Assembly: GCA_021292105.1 (NCBI GenBank) | Contig: CM037860.1 | Location: 14,464,698-14,528,697 of the forward strand | Direction of reading: 5' to 3' | DNA: 64,000 nucleotides | Source: Anadara kagoshimensis | Lineage: Eukaryota; Mollusca; Bivalvia; Arcoida; Arcidae | Shown: piece after piece, positions 1,251-39,999 of the stretch | Position numbering within the stretch: position 1 is the stretch's first letter | Layout of the letters: every line of letters starts with the position of its first letter | Notes under the pieces: generated by a model | The model's database searches: none | What the model was told of the DNA's origin: nothing | What the model saw: only the letters and a program-made list of their open reading frames with translations | Position numbers and translations under genes: made by a program

Positions 1251-3420
1251 AGCATTTTAAATCATATATATTACTGTGTGTATTGTTTTCATTTTTATTT
1301 AGTTCCTGAATCAAATATAATTCTTATTTATTCATTAAATATAAGCTCAAGATTTAATTGGAAAATTGGAAGCTACTTTTACGTGTTCAATAACAAAGTC
1401 AATAAACTGACCAGAGCCTGACTGACAGATATTGACCACTAAGCCTGATTCACGTCATCTAAATATTACAAGTCATTAAGTAAGTTAAAGTTAATTAAAT
1501 TACATAGACATAAAAAAAATAGATATCAGGCAAATAGAATAAAATTTGCGTTTATCTGACAGCTCTAGGGTAACAAAATAAGATTATGTGAAATTTTATC
1601 CGGAATTTCATTTTAAAACGTGTTTAGTATTACATACATTGTGTTAATCACTCCATAATCAATCTGAGCACTTAAGTAGATTAATGTTAAAAATCAATGT
1701 ATTAATCCCCTGGAGAAAAGTCATTTAATTACTTAAATAGTTATAATCATATTAATATGTTAAAAAAATATATACATACCAAAATGACTTGAATGACCTG
1801 TGGTATTCCAAAATCCTAACACCCGAGATCTGATGTCCGAGATTCAAACTCCGAGATTCAAACTCAGATTAAGATGAGGTGCGGATCATTGAGTTATCAG
1901 GCTAAAGTTCCACCACAGCAGTCACAGAGTTAAAGATGTGTTTTAATGTTCCAGATAAACAAAAATGTATTAACTACACTTTTATACATATAAAGTACCT
2001 GTTCAGGTGAAAATTACAACTCTTATCAAGGTATAAAGCGTAATGGTCACGGTCCAGAAAGTTGATAGTAGTTGTTAATTCAATTTTTTTCTTGTTGAAA
2101 TGTTGAGTTATTTGCAAATTATTTATATGTAGAAATAAAACTCCTGAGATAAAAACCTGTTTTCCTGGTTTTACTGCAAATGATAATATGGGTAGTAAAG
2201 AAATACTTTGTCTCTAAAAACTTGTCAAGCAACTGTCCACAGAGGGGAAAAATGCTGTGCAACAAGTTCTAATACAAATTGTTTATTTTATCATACAAAA
2301 TTCTTGTGTATTTAAATCCAACACAATTCACTAATACAAAGTTAAATAGATTTCTTCAGATAATTGTTAAAATCATAAGAAATAATTAAATTGTCTTAAC
2401 TTTTTAATCCACAGAGTCGTTGTCGCAGATTTAAGCGTCGGACTACAATGACAATTAAACATGAAACATTACATCCCTCTAGACAATATCAACGAGTGTT
2501 TGTTGTTTTGAATTCTAAGTTTTATCGAGCACTTAGAACAGAGACGAGTATCTCTGTTTTCTGTGTCAGAAGTGAATGATCACATGGAGCATGATGTTGT
2601 CGTTGTAACATCGGAAAGCCGAGATAGTGGGAGATTCTCCATAATCAATAAGTGAATGTTTAACCCTACAGGAAATGGGAGAGAGTATATGTATGCAGTG
2701 CACACCAAAAACAATAAACTTGCACTAATAGTTGCATTCTACAGCTTATGTTTTTATTTTAATTTACTTAAAACGATGCAAATTTTTCTCATTAGCTGCA
2801 AGCTTCGATAGAAATTCACGCACATGTTTTACTTTCGTGATCAATTTGAGGACACTGATTCACACAGCAATCGTTTATCTAGATTATTCTGTATAATCAA
2901 CTCTTCCTAATGTTTCATTCATTTCTCGTTAAAAATGTTTTAAATTATTCAAATTCATTCAACAGAAGACATTCCAAAACTTTCATCATTTGTTTTATTC
3001 TTATTTTCAACATGTATTTTATTTAAATAAGCCAGGAAGGTGTTCCATTTCATTTATAAAAAAAATGGTTGAGTATAATAAATTTGACAAAAAATCAAGG
3101 TGACTCTTCCGACTAGCATTTTAACTGTCATCATATTGCGAAACCATGAATTATTTGTGCCTCTGAATATAAAGAACACAATCAGGGGCAGACAATTTGT
3201 GTATCTTGTCACACCTTATAAGGTTTGTTGTCATTTGTGTTCATACTTTGTGATAGGGCACACGTTGATGAAATATGTTTTACTGTTACAATTATGATGT
3301 CATGATGATGTCATCAGTCATCAGATATTGAAGTCAAAAAGTGTCATTTTGACAAGAAGTCAAATTGCATGTAATAAGAACAGTAAAACCTGCATATATC
3401 AATGTCACCATTGGGACTTA
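1251..3420. other. No gene seen
   Basis: AT-rich sequence with stops in all frames every few tens of bases. No splice-bounded coding segment, TIR pair or tandem repeat was recognised. Confidence 0.5.
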
Positions 3421-12234: not shown

Positions 12235-12580
12235 AGACCTGGTAGAACAGTTGGTATAACACTTGCCTATAGCAGAGCTGCCAACTGACCCGCAACCCAC
12301 ATGTCCGACCTGGATTTGGACATTGATTCCTGCTGCCCCGCCAAGAAAGGGACTGACCCGAAAATTACCATAGGGTTTGAGGATTTGAAATGTTCATTCA
12401 TTACCACTCAAATTCATCTTTAATCTTGGCGATTCAATTCTTTTGGGAGGAATGCACCCAGTCACAGTCAATATTTTGGTCAGACCCGCAATAAGGCAAA
12501 ATAGGGTTGGCAGCTCTTCTATATTGTGGGAGGTCCTGGGTTTGATCCCCAGTCCGACACCTGCATTTTTCTTCTTCCTG
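12235..12580 (+). mobile_element. tRNA-derived SINE, split by a TIR element
   Basis: An A-box-like GGTAGAACAGTTGGTATAAC lies at 12241, and a B-box-like GGGTTTGATCCCCAG lies at about 12539. In an intact SINE these are about 40 bases apart; here 247 bases of another element separate them. Confidence 0.7.
12272..12518. mobile_element. 247-bp TIR element nested in a SINE
   Basis: The ends are inverted: AGAGCTGCCAAC at 12274 and GTTGGCAGCTCT ending at 12517. The five bases CTATA flank both sides (12267-12271 and 12519-12523), a direct target duplication within the SINE. A partial relative with the right end (GGACCCGCAATTA, ATAGGGTTGGCAGCTC) lies at 20130-20180. No transposase frame; superfamily not assigned. 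Confidence 0.75.
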
Positions 12581-22660: not shown

Positions 22661-22795
22661 TTTAACCTAATTTGTTAGTTTCAATTTTATTTTCACTTTG
22701 CTCTGAGATTGTGGTTTAGACATGGATTGATATATTTGTTTTTGATTTATACACACTGCCATCAAAATTAGTACATGCAATATTTTCATGAAAAC

Positions 22796-24609
22796 ACCAA
22801 TTTCTTGCCAACATTCAGCCAAACAACACCAATTTCTTGCCAACATTCAGCCAAACAACACCAATTTCTTGCCAACATTCAGCCAAACAACACCATTTCC
22901 TGCCAACATTCAGCTAAACAACACCAATTTCCTGCCAACATTCAGCCAAACCACACCAATTTCCTGCCAACATTCAGCTAAACAACACCAATTTCTTGCC
23001 AACATTCAGCCAAACAACACCAATTTCTTGCCAACATTCAGCCAAACAACACCAATTTCCTGCCAACATTCAGCCAAACAACACCAATTTCCTGCCAACA
23101 TTCAGCTAAACAACACCAATTTCTTGCCAACATTCAGCTAAACAACACCAATTTCTTGCCAACATTCAGCCAAACAACACCAATTTCTTGCCAACATTCA
23201 GCCAAACAACACCAATTTCCTGCCAACATTCAGCTAAACAACACCAATTTCCTGCCAACATTCAGCCAAACAACACCAATTTCTTGCCAACATTCAGCCA
23301 AACAACACCAATTTCCTGCCAACATTCAGCTAAACAACACCAATTTCCTGCCAACATTCAGCCAAACAACACCAATTTCCTGCCAACATTCAGCTAAACA
23401 ACACCAATTTCTTGCCAACATTCAGCCAAACAACACCAATTTCCTGCCAACATTCAGCTAAACAACGCCAATTTCTTGCCAACATTCAGCTAAACAACAC
23501 CAATTTCTTGCCAACATTCAGCCAAACAACACCAATTTCTTGCCAACATTCAGCCAAACAACACCAATTTCCTGCCAACATTCAGCCAAACAACACCAAT
23601 TTCCTGCCAACATTCAGCCAAACAACACCAATTTCCTGCCAACATTCAGCCAAACAACACCAATTTCTTGCCAACATTCAGCCAAACAACACCAATTTCT
23701 TGCCAACATTCAGCCAAACAACACCAATGTCTTGCCAACATTCAGCCAAACAACACCAATTTCTTGCCAACATTCAGCTAAACAACACCAATTTCTTGCC
23801 AACATTCAGCCAAACAACACCAATTTCTTGCCAACATTCAGCCAAACAACACCAATTTCCTGCCAACATTCAGCTAATCAAATTTCTTGCCAACATTCAG
23901 CTAAACAACGCCAATTTCTTGCCAACATTCAGCTAAACAACACCAATTTCTTGCCAACATTCAGCCAAACAACACCAATTTCCTGTCAACATTCAGCCAA
24001 ACAACACCAATTTCCTGCCAACATTCAGCCAAACAACACCAATTTCCTGCCAACATTCAGCCAAACAACACCAATTTCCTGCCAACATTCAGCCAAACAA
24101 CACCAATTTCCTGCCAACATTCAGCCAAACAACACCAATTTCCTGCCAACATTCAGCCAAACAACACCAATTTCTTGCCAACATTCAGCCAAACAACACC
24201 AATTTCCTGCCAACATTCAGCCAAACAACACCAATTTCCTGCCAACATTCAGCTAAACAACACCAATTTCTTGCCAACATTCAGCTAAACAACACCAATT
24301 TCTTGCCAACATTCAGCCAAACAACACCAATTTCTTGCCAACATTCAGCTAAACAACACCAATTTCTTGCCAACATTCAGCCAAACAACGCCAATTTCTT
24401 GCCAACATTCAGCCAAACAACACCAATTTCCTGCCAACATTCAGCTAAACACCAATTTCTTGCCAACATTCAGCTAAACAACACCAATTTCTAGCCAACA
24501 TTCAGTTAAACAACACCAATTTTTTGCCAACATTCAGCTAAACAACGCCAATTTCTCGCCAACATTCAGCGTAACAACACCAATTTCTTGCCAACATTCA
24601 GTTAAACAA
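22796..24609. repeat. 32-bp satellite array, about 56 units
   Basis: The unit contains CAAACAACACCAATTTC and TTGCCAACATTCAGC. Units differ mainly at three recurrent positions (TTGCC/CTGCC, AGCCAAAC/AGCTAAAC, ACACC/ACGCC); rare one- to four-base deletions occur. The last few units are more diverged, typical of an array edge. Because 32 is not a multiple of three, one open repeat reads through all plus-strand frames and gives the long Gln/Asn/Pro/Thr-rich frames seen; these have no splice or start context and I do not call them genes. Confidence 0.97.
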
Positions 24610-28531: not shown

Positions 28532-28700
28532 TAATTACATGTATTACTTAACATGTTTTAATTTTGCAGCACATGACACAACATCAAAATTATGGCAATC
28601 AAAATATTTTAAAGATTTTGATTTGAGAAAGAAAAAAGGACCAAAATGTATTTTATGAAATCCACCCAAGGCATAGCTTAGTTTTTTAAAGAATTTTAAG
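28532..28700 (-). mobile_element. Diverged, core-less relative of the retrozyme at 38161
   Basis: Reading the plus strand, AATTACAT, TTTTAATTTTGCAGCAC, CAAAATTATG, CAAAATATTTTAAAGAT, GGACCAAAATGTATTTTAT and GCTTAGTTTTTTA follow in the same order as in the insertion at 38161-38571. The ribozyme core and one inner segment are absent. It looks like an old solo copy. Confidence 0.5.
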
Positions 28701-28854: not shown

Positions 28855-29290
28855 AGTTGTAGCTGCTGGTTTTCTTAAATGGGGTCATCACTGCAGTTAC
28901 TTCAATACAAATTATACCACCATTGCTTCAAACACTATTCCAACCAATTCATCAGTTAAGTACTTTGTCTTCATTATTCTGTTTCTAGCATTACTATTGA
29001 GGAATTTGACTACTGTGGTAGCTCAGTTGGTAGAGTGCTGTCTCCATAATTGGGAAGTTATAGGTTCGAACCCTGACCGGGTCTGACCCAAGACTTCAAA
29101 GTGGGTAGTGACTGGTCTGTCGTAAAGCACTCTGCATTATGAAATAAAAGTCTTGGAATTTTTCGGGTGAGAACTTAATATAAACAAGGTCTTGTGTCAT
29201 GGTAGGCTTGGTACATTATTTTGTCTTTCTAACATTTTGTTTTTTAACATTACTAATGAGGAACTGGATTCAGAAACCTAGATAGGGTGT
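28855..29290. repeat. Left arm of a large foldback (with SINE inside)
   Basis: GCTTCAAACACTATTCCAAC, CAATTCATCAGTTAAGTA and AACATTACTAATGAGGAACT match, inverted, the arm at 30290-30610. A SINE at 29010-29135 interrupts it. Confidence 0.7.
29010..29135 (+). mobile_element. tRNA-derived SINE head
   Basis: TGTGGTAGCTCAGTTGGTAG (A box) and TAGGTTCGAACCCTG (B box), then GGTCTGACCC. Followed by GTCTTGG-containing text but no clear tail. Confidence 0.8.
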
Positions 29291-33490: not shown

Positions 33491-33824
33491 AAAATAAGGC
33501 CAGATGTTGCTAAAAGTACATTGTAATGATTTTTGTTTTTCTATTATGAAAAAGCTATAACCTATTCAGAGATTATTATTAAATATCAAAATAACATAAC
33601 CTTTTGGAAAATGAAACAAGGTAACAAGTTGTTATATTGTGGACATTTGTTTATTAAAATTTTGGCATAATAAAAAGGGTTTGGCAGAAGGAAACTTTCA
33701 GTGACCACTGGCAAGTAATCAAGGGAAACAACCTAGTAAAGTATAACAAATTCTAACTTTACACAAATATGGATGGGATTAATATTTACAGAATAGTAAT
33801 GTAATCGTAGTGTGTGCATATATT

Positions 33825-33873
<49 letters not shown>

Positions 33874-33944
33874 TTAAAATCTTATACAGACCATTCATGT
33901 TTGTGTGTGCATGTGTGCATCATTAACCTAGTGACTGCAATTGT

Positions 33945-34810
33945 TAGAATTTGATTGACATGCCTCAATAGAGACAGTCAATAATGTTCCAAGACTGGAA
34001 TATCATAAAAGTTGGTCCACTGAAACCATTATATAGGTATTTTTCAATACATTTACAGAAAATATATCTATATCATTACTTTTTGAAAAATGGTTTTTCA
34101 GTAGACCTTAAATATATATGGTTAACCATGTAGGAAAAATCAATTTTGATTAACTTGCCTCAATAGAGACAGTTAAGTATATTCCAAGTCTAGATTACAA
34201 CATCCAGATCTGGAATAGCAAATAAAACACCCTACCTGGTCCCATCTGGCACACAGTTATACCAAATCTTCAACTGAATTCAGGAGCGGACCAGTTTTAC
34301 TGCGCATGATTAACCCGCGAAATTGCAATTTGCAATTTGTAAGAATTTGATAGAATTGCCTCCCCGAAAGAGACAGTTAAGTATATTCCAGTTCTAGAAC
34401 AAATTAAAGACGCTATATGGTCAGCAGAAACGGCTCAATATTACAACTTTTTTTAGTACCATTCCAACAGACCAAAGTTAGGTGTGTACAAGAATAAACC
34501 AGTACCAGAATATCACATTGAAGAAAGATGTTATATGGTCAACTGAAACAAGCTCAACATTAGTGAATACTCAGACTTCAGCAGACCAGAGGTGATCTGT
34601 GTGAGGTCAACCATAACACCTGATCACTAGAATTTGTTAAAAAAAATCAGAAAAAGGACAAATTTGATAGTGAACAAATACACCATCTTAAAATAAATTT
34701 TGAAGTAACCAGATTGATGTGTATGGTATAACCATGTGACTGCAGTTTGTCCGAATTGGATTAACTGTCTCAAATAGACAGTTATAAATATATACTAGTA
34801 CTGGAATATT
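33945..34810. repeat. Degenerate sub-repeats inside each 1.53-kb unit
   Basis: Four sub-repeats share GAATTTGATT, GCCTCAATAGAGACAGTTAA and TATATTCCAAGTCTAG followed by GGTCAGCAGAAAC-like ends. In the first unit they start near 33945, 34140, 34343 and 34745. They recur at the same offsets in the other units, so the array has two nested levels of age. Confidence 0.7.
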
Positions 34811-36892
34811 AAAATGGTCAGTAGAAGTTCCTCCTTTCAAACAGGGTCCACTTCTACTACCAGAGAAATGTATGTATGGCAAAAATACTTCAATGACCCT
34901 TCTTTATGTGGACACCCTTTCTACAAAAAATCTGAATGGGGGACCTCATAAGGGGTTCTGCTGAATAGATATGTCTGTCTATTTGGTCTGTAGTTTAAAA
35001 AAATTGACAAAAATCCTGGATAAATAAGGCCAGATGTTGCTCAAAGTACACTTTTATGATTTTTGTTTTACCATGATGAAAAAAAGCTATAACCTATTCA
35101 AAAATTATTATTAAATATCAAAATAACATAACCATTTGGAAAATGCAACAAGATAACAAGTTGTTATATTGTGGACATTTGTTTATTAAAATTTTGGCAT
35201 AATAAAAAGGGTTTGGCAGAAGGAAACTTTCAGTGACCACTGGCAAGTAATCAAGGGAAACAACCTAGTAAAGTATAACAAATTCTAACTTTACACAAAT
35301 ATGGATGGGATTAATATTTACAGAATAGTAATGTAATCGTAGTGTGTGCATATATTTTGTGTGTGTGTGTGTGTGTGTTGTGTGTGTGTGTGTGTGTGCG
35401 TTTAAAATCTTATACAGACCATTCATGTTTGTGTGTGCATGTGTGCATCATTAACCTAGTGACTGCAATTGTTAGAATTTGATTGACATGCCTCAATAGA
35501 GACAGTCAATAATGTTCCAAGACTGGAATATCATAAAAGTTGGTCCACTGAAACCATTATATAGGTATTTTTCAATACATTTACAGAAAATATATCTATA
35601 TCATTACTTTTTGAAAAATGGTTTTTCAGTAGACCTTAAATACTAGTATATATGGTTAACCATGTAGGAAAAATCAATTTTGATTAACTTGCCTCAATAG
35701 AGACAGTTAAGTATATTCCAAGTCTAGATTACAACATCCAGATCTGGAATAGCAAATAAAACACCCTACCTGGTCCCATCTGGCACACAGTTATACCAAA
35801 TCTTCAACTGAATTCAGGAGCGGACCAGTTTTACTGCGCATGATTAACCCGCGAAATTGCAATTTGCAATTTGTAAGAATTTGATAGAATTGCCTCCCCG
35901 AAAGAGACAGTTAAGTATATTCCAGTTCTAGAACAAATTAAAGACGCTATATGGTCAGCAGAAACGGCTCAATATTACAACTTTTTTTAGTACCATTCCA
36001 ACAGACCAAAGTTAGGTGTGTACAAGAATAAACCAGTACCAGAATATCACATTGAAGAAAGATGTTATATGGTCAACTGAAACAAGCTCAACATTAGTGA
36101 ATACTCAGACTTCAGCAGACCAGAGGTGATCTGTGTGAGGTCAACCATAACACCTGATCACTAGAATTTGTTAAAAAAATCAGAAAAAGGACAAATTTGA
36201 TAGTGAACAAATACACCATCTTAAAATAAATTTTGAAGTAACCAGATTGATGTGTATGGTATAACCATGTGACTGCAGTTTGTCCGAATTGGATTAACTG
36301 TCTCAAATAGACAGTTATAAATATATACTAGCACTGGAATATTAAAATGGTCAGTAGAAGTTCCTCCTTTCAAACAGGGTCCACTTCTACTACCAGAGAA
36401 ATGTATGTATGGCAAAAATACTTCAATGACCCTTCTTTATGTGGACACCCTTTCTACAAAAAATCTGAATGGGGGACCTCATAAGGGGTTCTGCTGAATA
36501 GATATGTCTGTCTATTTGGTCTGTAGTTTAAAAAAAATTGACAAAAATCCTGGATAAATAAGGCCAGATGTTGCTCAAAGTACACTTTTATGATTTTTGT
36601 TTTACCATGATGAAAAAAAGCTATAACCTATTCAAAAATTATTATTAAATATCAAAATAACATAACCATTTGGAAAATGCAACAAGATAACAAGTTGTTA
36701 TATTGTGGACATTTGTTTATTAAAATTTTGGCATAATAAAAAGGGTTTGGCAGAAGGAAACTTTCAGTGACCACTGGCAAGCAATCAAGGGAAACAACCT
36801 AGTAAAGTATAACAAATTCTAACTTTACACAAATATGGATGGGATTAATATTTACAGAATAGTAATGTAATCGTAGTGTGTGCATATATTTT

Positions 36893-36929
<37 letters not shown>

Positions 36930-38160
36930 AAAATCTTATACAGACCATTCATGTTTGTGTGTGCATGTGTGCATCATTAACCTAGTGACTGCAATTGTTA
37001 GAATTTGATTGACATGCCTCAATAGAGACAGTCAATAATGTTCCAAGACTGGAATATCATAAAAGTTGGTCCACTGAAACCATTATATAGGTATTTTTCA
37101 ATACCTTTACAGAAAATATATCTATATCATTACTTTTTGAAAAATGGTTTTTCAGTAGACCTTAAATACTAGTATATATGGTTAACCATGTAGGAAAAAT
37201 CAATTTTGATTAACTTGCCTCAATAGAGACAGTTAAGTATATTCCAAGTCTAGATTACAACGTCCAGATCTGGAATAGCAAATAAAACACCCTACCTGGT
37301 CCCATCTGACACACAGTTATACCAAATCTTCAACTGAATTCAGGAGCGGACCAGTTTTACTGCGCATGATTAACCCGCGAAATTGCAATTTGCAATTTGT
37401 AAGAATTTGATTGAATTGCCTCCCCGAAAGAGACAGTTAAGTATATTCCAGTTCTAGAACAAATTAAAGACGCTATATGGTCAGCAGAAACGGCTCAATA
37501 TTACAACTTTTTTTGAGTACCATTCCAACAGACCAAAGTTAGGTGTGTACAAGAATAAACCAGTACCAGAATATCACATTGAAGAAAGATGTTATATGGT
37601 CAACTGAAACAAGCTCAACATTAGTGAATACTCAGACTTCAGCAGACCAGAGGTGATCTGTGTGAGGTCAACCGTAACACCTGGTCACTAGAATTTGTTA
37701 AAAAAAAATTAAAAAAAAGGACAAATTTGATAGTGAACAAATACACCATCTTAAAATAAATTTTGAAGTAACCAGATTGACGTGTATGGTATAACCATGT
37801 GACTGCAGTTTGTCCGAATTGGATTAACTGCCTCAAATAGACAGTTATAAATATATACTAGTACTGGAATATTAAAATCATCGGGTCAGTAGAAGTTCCT
37901 CCTTTCAAACAGGGTCCACTTCTACTACCAGAGAAATGTCTGTATGGCAAAAATACTTCAGTGACCCTTCTTTATGTGGGCACCCTTTCTACAAAAAATC
38001 TCAATGGGGGACCTCATAAGGGGTTCTGCTGAATAGTTATGTCTGTCTATTTGGTCTGTAGTTTAAAAAACATTTGAGAAAAATCCTGGATAAATAAGGC
38101 CAGATGTTGCTCAAAGTACACTTTTATGATTTTTATTTTACCATGATGAAAAAAGCTATA

Positions 38161-38571
38161 AATTACATATTATACCAGTTTTAATTTTACAGCACCAGAC
38201 GGCTGTTTCGGAATACAATTCTTCATCAGTAGTGCTTGGACCAAAATTATGAAACCAAAATTATTTTGAAGATGTTGAAAAGCTACCAAAAGGACCAAAA
38301 TATATTTTACCAAATTAAGCTAAGGAAATACTTTGCATGAGGGAGTATACCTTAGTTTTTTATAAATTTCAAATTTCAACTTGCAGGAAATTTAGACAAT
38401 TATAATATATTTCTGACAATAATACGAAATTATTGCCTACTGAGTTGGTGATATCCTCGGGGCACCAGCCACCAGCAGAGATATCGGCTCAGGGGTTTAA
38501 ATTACATATTATATCAGTTTTAATTTTACAGCACCAGATGGCCGTTTCGGAATACAATTCCTCATCAGTAG
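38161..38571 (-). mobile_element. Retrozyme-like insertion with two hammerhead ribozymes
   Basis: The other array units supply the empty site (AAAGCTATAACCTATTC), so the insertion is exact, with TATA repeated at both sides. Its two ends are direct repeats of about 73 bases (38161-38232 and 38501-38571). On the minus strand each holds the hammerhead order: CTGATGA, a stem-II hairpin with a TGT loop, GAAAC, a tiny stem III and a TC cleavage step followed by TGGTGC. The predicted cut sites, between 38536/38537 and 38197/38198, are 339 nt apart, the length of the circular RNA such elements would give. No protein is coded; movement would need an enzyme from elsewhere. Known animal retrozymes have this build. 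Pairing in each copy is slightly imperfect, so present activity is uncertain. Confidence 0.75.
38188..38237 (-). ncRNA. Type I hammerhead ribozyme motif, copy A
   Basis: Stem I is formed by AGCACTA just before CTGATGA and TGGTGCT after the predicted cut. Stem II is GAAT/ATTC around TGT. Stem III is about three base pairs with a two-base loop, as in metazoan retrozyme ribozymes, which are thought to act best as dimers. This copy has the full stem I because both strands lie within the element. Confidence 0.7.
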
Positions 38572-38575
38572 TATA
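38526..38575 (-). ncRNA. Type I hammerhead ribozyme motif, copy B
   Basis: CTGATGA, stem II GGAAT/ATTCC around TGT, then GAAAC and ATC before TGGTGC. Its upstream stem I strand crosses the insertion border, so stem I is shorter than in copy A. That is expected for the outer copy of a tandem insertion. Confidence 0.65.
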
Positions 38576-39999
38576 ACCTATTCAAAGATTATTATTAAAT
38601 ATCAAAATAACATAACCATTTGGAAAATGCAACAAGGTAACAAGTTGTTATATTGTGGACATTTGTTTATTAAAATTTTGGCATAATAAAAAGGGTTTGG
38701 CAGAAGGAAACTTTCAGAAACCACTGGCAAGTAATCAAGGGAAACAACCTTGTAAAGTATAACAAATTCTAACTTTACACAAATATGGATGGGATTAATA
38801 TTTACAGAATAGTAATGCAATCGTAGTGTGTGCATATATTTGGTGTGTGTGTGTGTGTCTGTGTTTAAAATCTTATACAGACCATTTATGTTTGTGTGTG
38901 CATGTGTGCATCATTAACCTAGTGACTGCAATTGTTAGAATTTGATTGACATGCCTCAATAGAGACAGTCAATAATGTTCCAAGACTGGAATATCATAAA
39001 AGTTGGTCCACTGAAACCATTATATAGGTATTTTTCAATACCGTTACAGAAAATATATCTATATTATTTCTTTTAGAAAAATGGTTTTCAGTAGACCTTA
39101 AATATATATGGTTAACCATGTAGGGAAAATCAATTTTGATTAACTTGCCTCAATAGGACAGTTTAGTATATTCCAAGTCTAGATTACAACATCCAGATTT
39201 GGAATAGCAAATAAAACACCCTACCTGGTCCCATCTGACACACAGTTACACCAAATCTTCAACTGAATTCAGGAGCGGACCAGTTTTACTGCGCATGATT
39301 AACCCGCGAAATTGCAATTTGCAATTTGTAAGAATTTGATTGAATTGCCTCCCCGAAAGAGACAGTTAAGTATATTCCAGTTCTAGAACAAATTAAAGAC
39401 GCTATATGGTCAGCAGAAACGGCTCAATATTACAACTTTTTTTTAGTACCATTCCAACAGACCAAAGTTAGGTGTGTACAAGAATAAACCAGTACCAGAA
39501 TATCACATTGAAGAAAGATGTTATATGGTCAACTGAAACAAGCTCAACATTAGTGAATACTCAGACTTCAGCAGACCAGAGGTGATCTGTGTGAGGTCAA
39601 CCATAACACCTGGCCACTAGAATTTGTTAAAAAAAATCAGAAAAAAGGACAAATTTGATAGTGAACAAATACACCATCTTAAAATAAATTTTGAAGTAAC
39701 CAGATTGACGTGTATGGTATAACCATGTGACTGCAGTTTGTCCGAATTGGATTAACTGCCTCAAATAGACAGTTATAAATATATACTAGTACTGGAATAT
39801 TAAAATGGTCAGTAGAAGTTCCTCCTTTCAAACAGGGTCCACTTCTACTACCAGAGAAATGTCTGTATGGCAAAAATACTTCAGTTACCCTTCTTTATGT
39901 GGACACCCTTTCTACAAAAAATCTGAATGGGGGACCTCATAAGGGGTTCTGCTGAATAGCTAGGTCTGTAATTTAAAAACAAAACATCCTGGAAAATAA

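Follow-up and report, generated by a model that had tools for sequence, protein, structure and literature searches.

The window, as we call the whole 64,000-nucleotide stretch of DNA analysed here, holds a tandem array of 1,534-bp units (33559–39969; about 3.9 units without the insert) that is broken up by an insert of 410–411 bp at 38162–38571/2. Three sibling units of the array carry the empty site, at 33546–33570, 35077–35102 and 36611–36636 on the plus strand, which bears out the 411-bp insertion and its three empty relatives described in the initial annotation. TATAA is found on both flanks (38157–38161 on the left, 38572–38576 on the right), so that one T makes the right end of the insert ambiguous; the first T of the right copy is common to the inserted unit, and the target duplication is hence 4–5 bp. 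Elsewhere in the window, a 32-bp tandem repeat with 57 copies occupies 22793–24609, and old, diverged retrozyme pieces, 75–84% alike, lie at 28533–28661 and, on the other strand, at 28964–29006 and 29248–29277.

Read on the minus strand, the insert (38162–38572; a 98% match to the family unit described below) is made up of a 339-nt unit and a further 72 nt, and contains two hammerhead sites. The end repeats and the 339-nt spacing claimed earlier were both recovered, as a 72-bp direct repeat and as the distance from cut to cut (38198–38536). From the letters and the comparison of arrays, the stretch between the two predicted cuts is a putative circle. The 36 nt from the ribozyme cut to a fixed insertion end (38162–38197) form the RNA 3′ tail, as delimited by array and tail searches. 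The terminal repeat is the overlap of the unit with itself, and there is no LTR. The unit has a G+C content of 34.5%.

Both hammerheads were recognized on the minus strand by inspection, and each fails a strict descriptor. The RNA-3′ copy (38192–38235), with its predicted cut between 38198 and 38197, has a complete stem I and an A·C mismatch closing stem II. The RNA-5′ copy (38531–38572), predicted to cut between 38537 and 38536, has a C·A mismatch in stem III and a truncated outer stem I strand; four stem I pairs are left after truncation at the insert end, and the target letters give a fifth. The letters and minus-strand layout reported for two hammerheads around a 339-nt unit are as described, but two working ribozymes in this insert are not supported, both being damaged. 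The strict descriptor found no site anywhere in the window and, when the window was shuffled 60 times under a first-order Markov model, gave 0 matches. A looser descriptor (stem I of at least 5 pairs; the shuffle control covers the strict form only) gave 132 matches in loci L009–L088 (404 kb, both strands summed, duplicate loci counted) and detects the family unit solely on the minus strand.

The Rfam hammerhead model, which the initial annotation had proposed as a check, gave no match in the window, either for the whole window at the gathering threshold or at E ≤ 10 on a 541-bp piece around the insert. This miss, which the annotation had named among its refuting conditions, is not decisive, because the five family loci scanned, four of them with descriptor-intact copies (L062, L079, L085 and L014), gave only one weak match. 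That sole match, to Hammerhead_1 (RF00163), scored 19.2 bits where the gathering threshold is 34, and these loci therefore fall below the threshold of this model.

Judged by its sequence, the window insert belongs to a large retrozyme family, of a kind known in animals, with copies in the thousands. An exact 32-nt ribozyme core occurs at 3,061 places in the genome and a 31-nt RNA 3′ tail (≤2 mismatches) at 12,472, each with 0 places for the reversed control. The commonest ribozyme in L009–L088, with 78 copies, is GCACUA-CUGAUGA-GGAAU-UGU-AUUCC-GAAA-CGGCCG-UC-UAGUGC. This form has a 6-bp stem I, a 5-bp stem II, a stem III of ACGGCCGU (2 bp) and the core CUGAUGA/GAAA/UC; the window's subfamily, with UGGUGC, numbers 29 copies in the same loci. 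All six stem I pairs are kept in both the UAGUGC form and the UGGUGC subfamily, and at one of them 127 of 168 copies have U-A and 37 have U-G, the copies being interdependent. The intact consensus and the 3,061 exact cores uphold the claim of a retrozyme with type I hammerheads, and the tandem copies that the annotation had suggested looking for in the genome are present, as arrays of 1.2 to 11.5 units (411 to 3,893 bp). The element is probably a maker of self-cutting circular RNA. Its 339-nt unit is far too short for a reverse transcriptase plus a GIY-YIG endonuclease, and we infer that it relies on another element's enzymes.

Several further comparisons gave null results. When folded, the unit shows no greater stability than its shuffles (z = −0.7; 46 of 200 shuffles were as stable), and no exact ribozyme core was found in viral contigs. 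Departure from the consensus is 3.7% in the ribozyme region versus 5.0% in the body (68 loci), a contrast too small for a claim of selection. Low divergence of the tail was discarded as evidence, as it follows from picking loci by an exact tail.

Diverged relatives were also observed. Hammerheads with other stem II lengths gave 580 matches versus 90 in the reversed control. One locus (L090) is an array of 126–127-nt units that resemble the retrozyme over ribozyme and tail only; at 313–781 of this locus, three of four units have an extra TGA beside CTGATGA, so the ribozyme looks broken. Another array (L091) has units 531 nt apart. Diverged ribozyme-tail modules form a pair 918 bp apart at L072:2592–3616, where the surrounding repeat is also duplicated. 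At L081:1190–1260 and 1371–1444 there are tRNA-like matches below threshold (25.8 and 25.4 bits versus 29), possibly a SINE.

The insertion ends of the family were read in two sets of loci. The first comprised 40 array clusters from the first genome search (40 of 7,139 candidates scored), all of which were fetched; leaving out the same-flank duplicates L029, L030 and L042 gave 37 arrays. These were selected by a full match to 411 nt, which biases the set to long, young copies and leaves the start of the array free. The RNA 3′ end lies at unit base 1 in 36 of the 37 arrays and at base 2 in the other (L024), whereas the RNA 5′ ends range from phase 34 to phase 338. The fixed insertion end is 36 nt 3′ of the predicted ribozyme cut.

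The second set comprised 40 loci on C1, namely the first 39 exact-tail clusters listed and one pair chosen for its spacing (L088), and it contains duplicates such as L055/L056, L057/L059, L080/L083 and L081/L082. Because the tail served as search bait, the start at base 1 is partly by construction in this set. No perfect unit end precedes 41 of the 44 exact tails, and the L079 tail follows a slightly changed one. One clean 5′-truncated copy of 58–347 bp is present in 27 of the 40 loci. An exception to the fixed end is L064, a young array (97% alike) outside the set of 37 whose RNA 3′ end falls at unit base 51; this two-piece array (L064:1374–1890) has its RNA 3′ end inside the ribozyme, and either another start or a later loss would account for it.

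Among the 37 arrays and the 27 truncated C1 copies taken together, 52 of 64 have an A immediately before the insert (P = 6e-15; background 0.335), and A+T at flank positions −2 to −7 is little above the 67% background. The TATA duplication that had been put forward as fitting a retrozyme does flank the window insert, as TATAA, but it is not a hallmark of the family: across the 64 copies, target duplications are not in excess over mismatched flanks (at least 5 nt, 3 seen versus 1.3 expected). Sibling-defined empty sites show TATAA in the window, TGTA(A) in L020, a deletion of 3–7 bp in L031 and an ambiguous outcome in L009, the last three read by eye. We considered run-off at the ribozyme cut and dropped it, since the 64 copies are not significantly enriched in ends near the cut (3 right ends at q33–40 versus 1.5 expected). 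A piece in L087 that aligns over q1–39 only is no run-off end either, because the match resumes at q124.

This footprint suggests target-primed reverse transcription with a single internal start base. We think it probable that the family is a non-LTR retrozyme copied from a circle, starting at one fixed base, by a reverse transcriptase that is most likely Penelope-like. In the text of PMC11167929 available to us, AT-rich DNA is cut by a purified Penelope-like protein, which begins copying within its RNA instead of at the RNA end.

Penelope-like elements are present in this genome. One locus (L089) has an open frame of 762 aa with reverse transcriptase and GIY-YIG domains, and GIY-YIG matches number at least 50 in the genome (150 of 248 candidates scored). 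Hammerhead motifs accompany Penelope-like elements at three of five long loci. Of 40 pieces that lie downstream of the endonuclease, a few sharing a locus, 29 contain such a motif. The nearest ends of the Penelope-like families here, read by eye, lie about 30–46, 63–81 or 64 nt past the cut, and others run further; the 36 nt of the retrozyme fall inside this range.

No Penelope family could, from the sequences compared, be matched to the retrozyme as its specific partner. A tail in common with one family was suggested by two copies in L105, since both elements, retrozyme and Penelope-like, seemed to end 10 nt after GGTAT. We dropped this idea because the letters are not significantly alike (shuffled-letter P of 0.06 and 0.16 for the retrozyme tail against two Penelope-like families) and the ends of that family are mostly at 63–81 nt. 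Among 25 of its copies (20 plus 5, from 49 genome places of its tail), the 8 with an end have it at 40, 63, 72 (three), 75 (two) or 81 nt beyond the cut. The other 17 were counted as running on, including L154 (79 nt by script, continuing after a small insert). Separately, 37 of the 49 tails are letter-identical over 32 nt and several form inverted pairs with a spacing below 120 bp, so this Penelope-like family looks recently active.

A LINE-type reverse transcriptase is an alternative mobilizer, which we regard as possible though unlikely. Truncation at the 5′ end and target priming are both common in LINEs, and the failure to match a specific Penelope partner leaves room for such an enzyme. 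However, the published behaviour of Penelope-like elements accords better with copying that begins at one fixed position within a circular or longer RNA, and hammerhead-bearing elements of that type are present in the genome. Moreover, in the 40 exact-tail C1 loci the match continues into the retrozyme, and no LINE with that tail was found there.

The position of the fixed end also constrains the template. On a linear monomer opened by the cut, copying from the fixed base would yield an insert of 36 bp at most, and all 64 measured copies are longer. The self-cleaved linear monomer is therefore excluded as template, which leaves a circle or an uncut multimer. Since these copies also show no excess of ends near the cut, the template must run through a ligated or an uncut ribozyme site.

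Comparison of units bears on which of these was copied. Divergence is 0.26% within arrays versus 2.1% between them (167 and 4,019 pairs, 92 units). In 22 arrays, 66 variants occur in every unit of their array, whereas 200 reshuffles gave 6 on average and 17 at most. A further 128 sites show a departure from the consensus in part of an array's units, and the arrays L031, L033 and L044 diverge by 1.8–2.7% within; we read both as later mutation. The homogeneity of arrays fits repeated copying of one circle, followed by mutation. An important caveat is that a homogeneous source array, transcribed as an uncut linear multimer, would leave the same picture, which makes the circle the favoured template and not a proven one. 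In a separate observation, L023 and L030 (C2) have identical flanks and differ in the number of retrozyme units, so copy number changed after insertion.

The corresponding alternative is that the element is a hammerhead-bearing SINE copied from uncut linear multimers, with ribozyme and circle irrelevant to insertion. In the in vitro assay of PMC11167929, as far as its available text describes it, the main substrate was unprocessed RNA and insertion was normal with ribozyme mutants, both of which favour this explanation, and units that are homogeneous within an array could reflect homogeneous multimers. Against it, the thousands of exact cores suggest that the ribozyme is kept, although young age could do likewise. 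Single truncated copies, as found in 27 of the 40 C1 loci, are unable to make a multimer, and yet the arrays have private variants in all their units. We consider this explanation distinctly improbable. Spread as satellite DNA, through extrachromosomal circles, Helitron-like rolling circles or recombination with the hammerhead as a bystander, is very improbable: tandem arrays, the lack of a general target duplication, the A at −1 (Helitrons have an A/T insertion point) and the different start of L064 would suit it, but one fixed and one variable end in 37 of 37 arrays are the mark of reverse transcription with early stops, and the window insert has duplicated TATAA at a clean empty site.

For copying of a circle from a fixed base, we propose the following cycle. 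A transcript of tandem copies would be cut at each hammerhead into 339-nt pieces, as the motif suggests, and a host RNA ligase may then close the pieces into circles, as in published animal retrozymes. A reverse transcriptase, most likely Penelope-like, would open the target DNA, usually just after A; here the preference for A is observed and the enzyme presumed. Copying would begin 36 nt 3′ of the ribozyme cut, at the one fixed RNA base seen in the arrays. The enzyme would then travel from less than one to more than 11 turns to a variable stop, a range taken from the ends and arrays, on a template that we suppose to be circular. The second end would be joined with a 4–5-bp duplication, a small deletion or nothing clear, each seen at single sites.

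A more ambitious reading takes the family as a record, at base resolution, of rolling-circle target-primed reverse transcription, in which a Penelope-like enzyme primes on a closed hammerhead circle at one fixed base 36 nt past the ligation point and makes up to a dozen turns, copying directly into the target DNA; to us the chances of this are about even. If it is true, circle formation is the step that enables multi-unit insertion. The family makes the question of how retrozymes return to DNA testable, since start base, target base and turn number are all legible in its DNA, and a defined RNA can be offered to a purified Penelope-like protein. In the available text of PMC7761336, the return to DNA and the enzyme that moves retrozymes are called undeduced, and a conserved motif from which to deduce the mobilizing element is said to be absent.

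Three known systems invite comparison. Plant LTR retrozymes, according to the parts of PMC7229834 accessible to us, have type III hammerheads, LTRs, a primer-binding site and 4-bp duplications. The family described here resembles them as a presumably non-coding parasite with a hammerhead-bounded circle, putative in our case, but differs in that it has no LTR, its terminal repeat being unit overlap.

Metazoan non-LTR retrozymes are closer. The same accessible parts (Cervera and de la Pena 2020, PMC7229834) give units of 170–400 nt and a mussel family of 350–390 bp with about 5,000 hammerheads, expressed as circles. The likeness lies in a type I hammerhead per unit, tandem units, low G+C and thousands of copies, and it rests on these described features, not on unit sequence. 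Published retrozyme circles are ‘highly self-paired’, whereas the unit here folds no better than shuffles. A fixed insertion end, found here in 37 of 37 arrays, is not given for metazoan retrozymes in those parts of PMC7229834. The family is of this known kind, and its base-resolved footprint goes beyond what that source offers, although such a footprint may be in print elsewhere.

Penelope-like elements with minimal hammerheads, as portrayed in the available text of PMC11167929, share with the family tandem copies, a hammerhead near the insertion end and an internal start of reverse transcription. In those of this genome, stem III is palindromic in most copies (AGCU, AGUACU, AGCGCU, ACAUGU), as ACGGCCGU is in the retrozyme; L128 is an exception. 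A Penelope-like element encodes its enzyme, whereas the retrozyme unit is only 339 nt. Several Penelope-like copies adjoin (TA)n, whereas the listed retrozyme flanks mostly do not, save L028/L029 beside TA repeats. By eye, several hammerhead Penelope-like families among L119–L145 end beside (TA)n, as if targeting that microsatellite.
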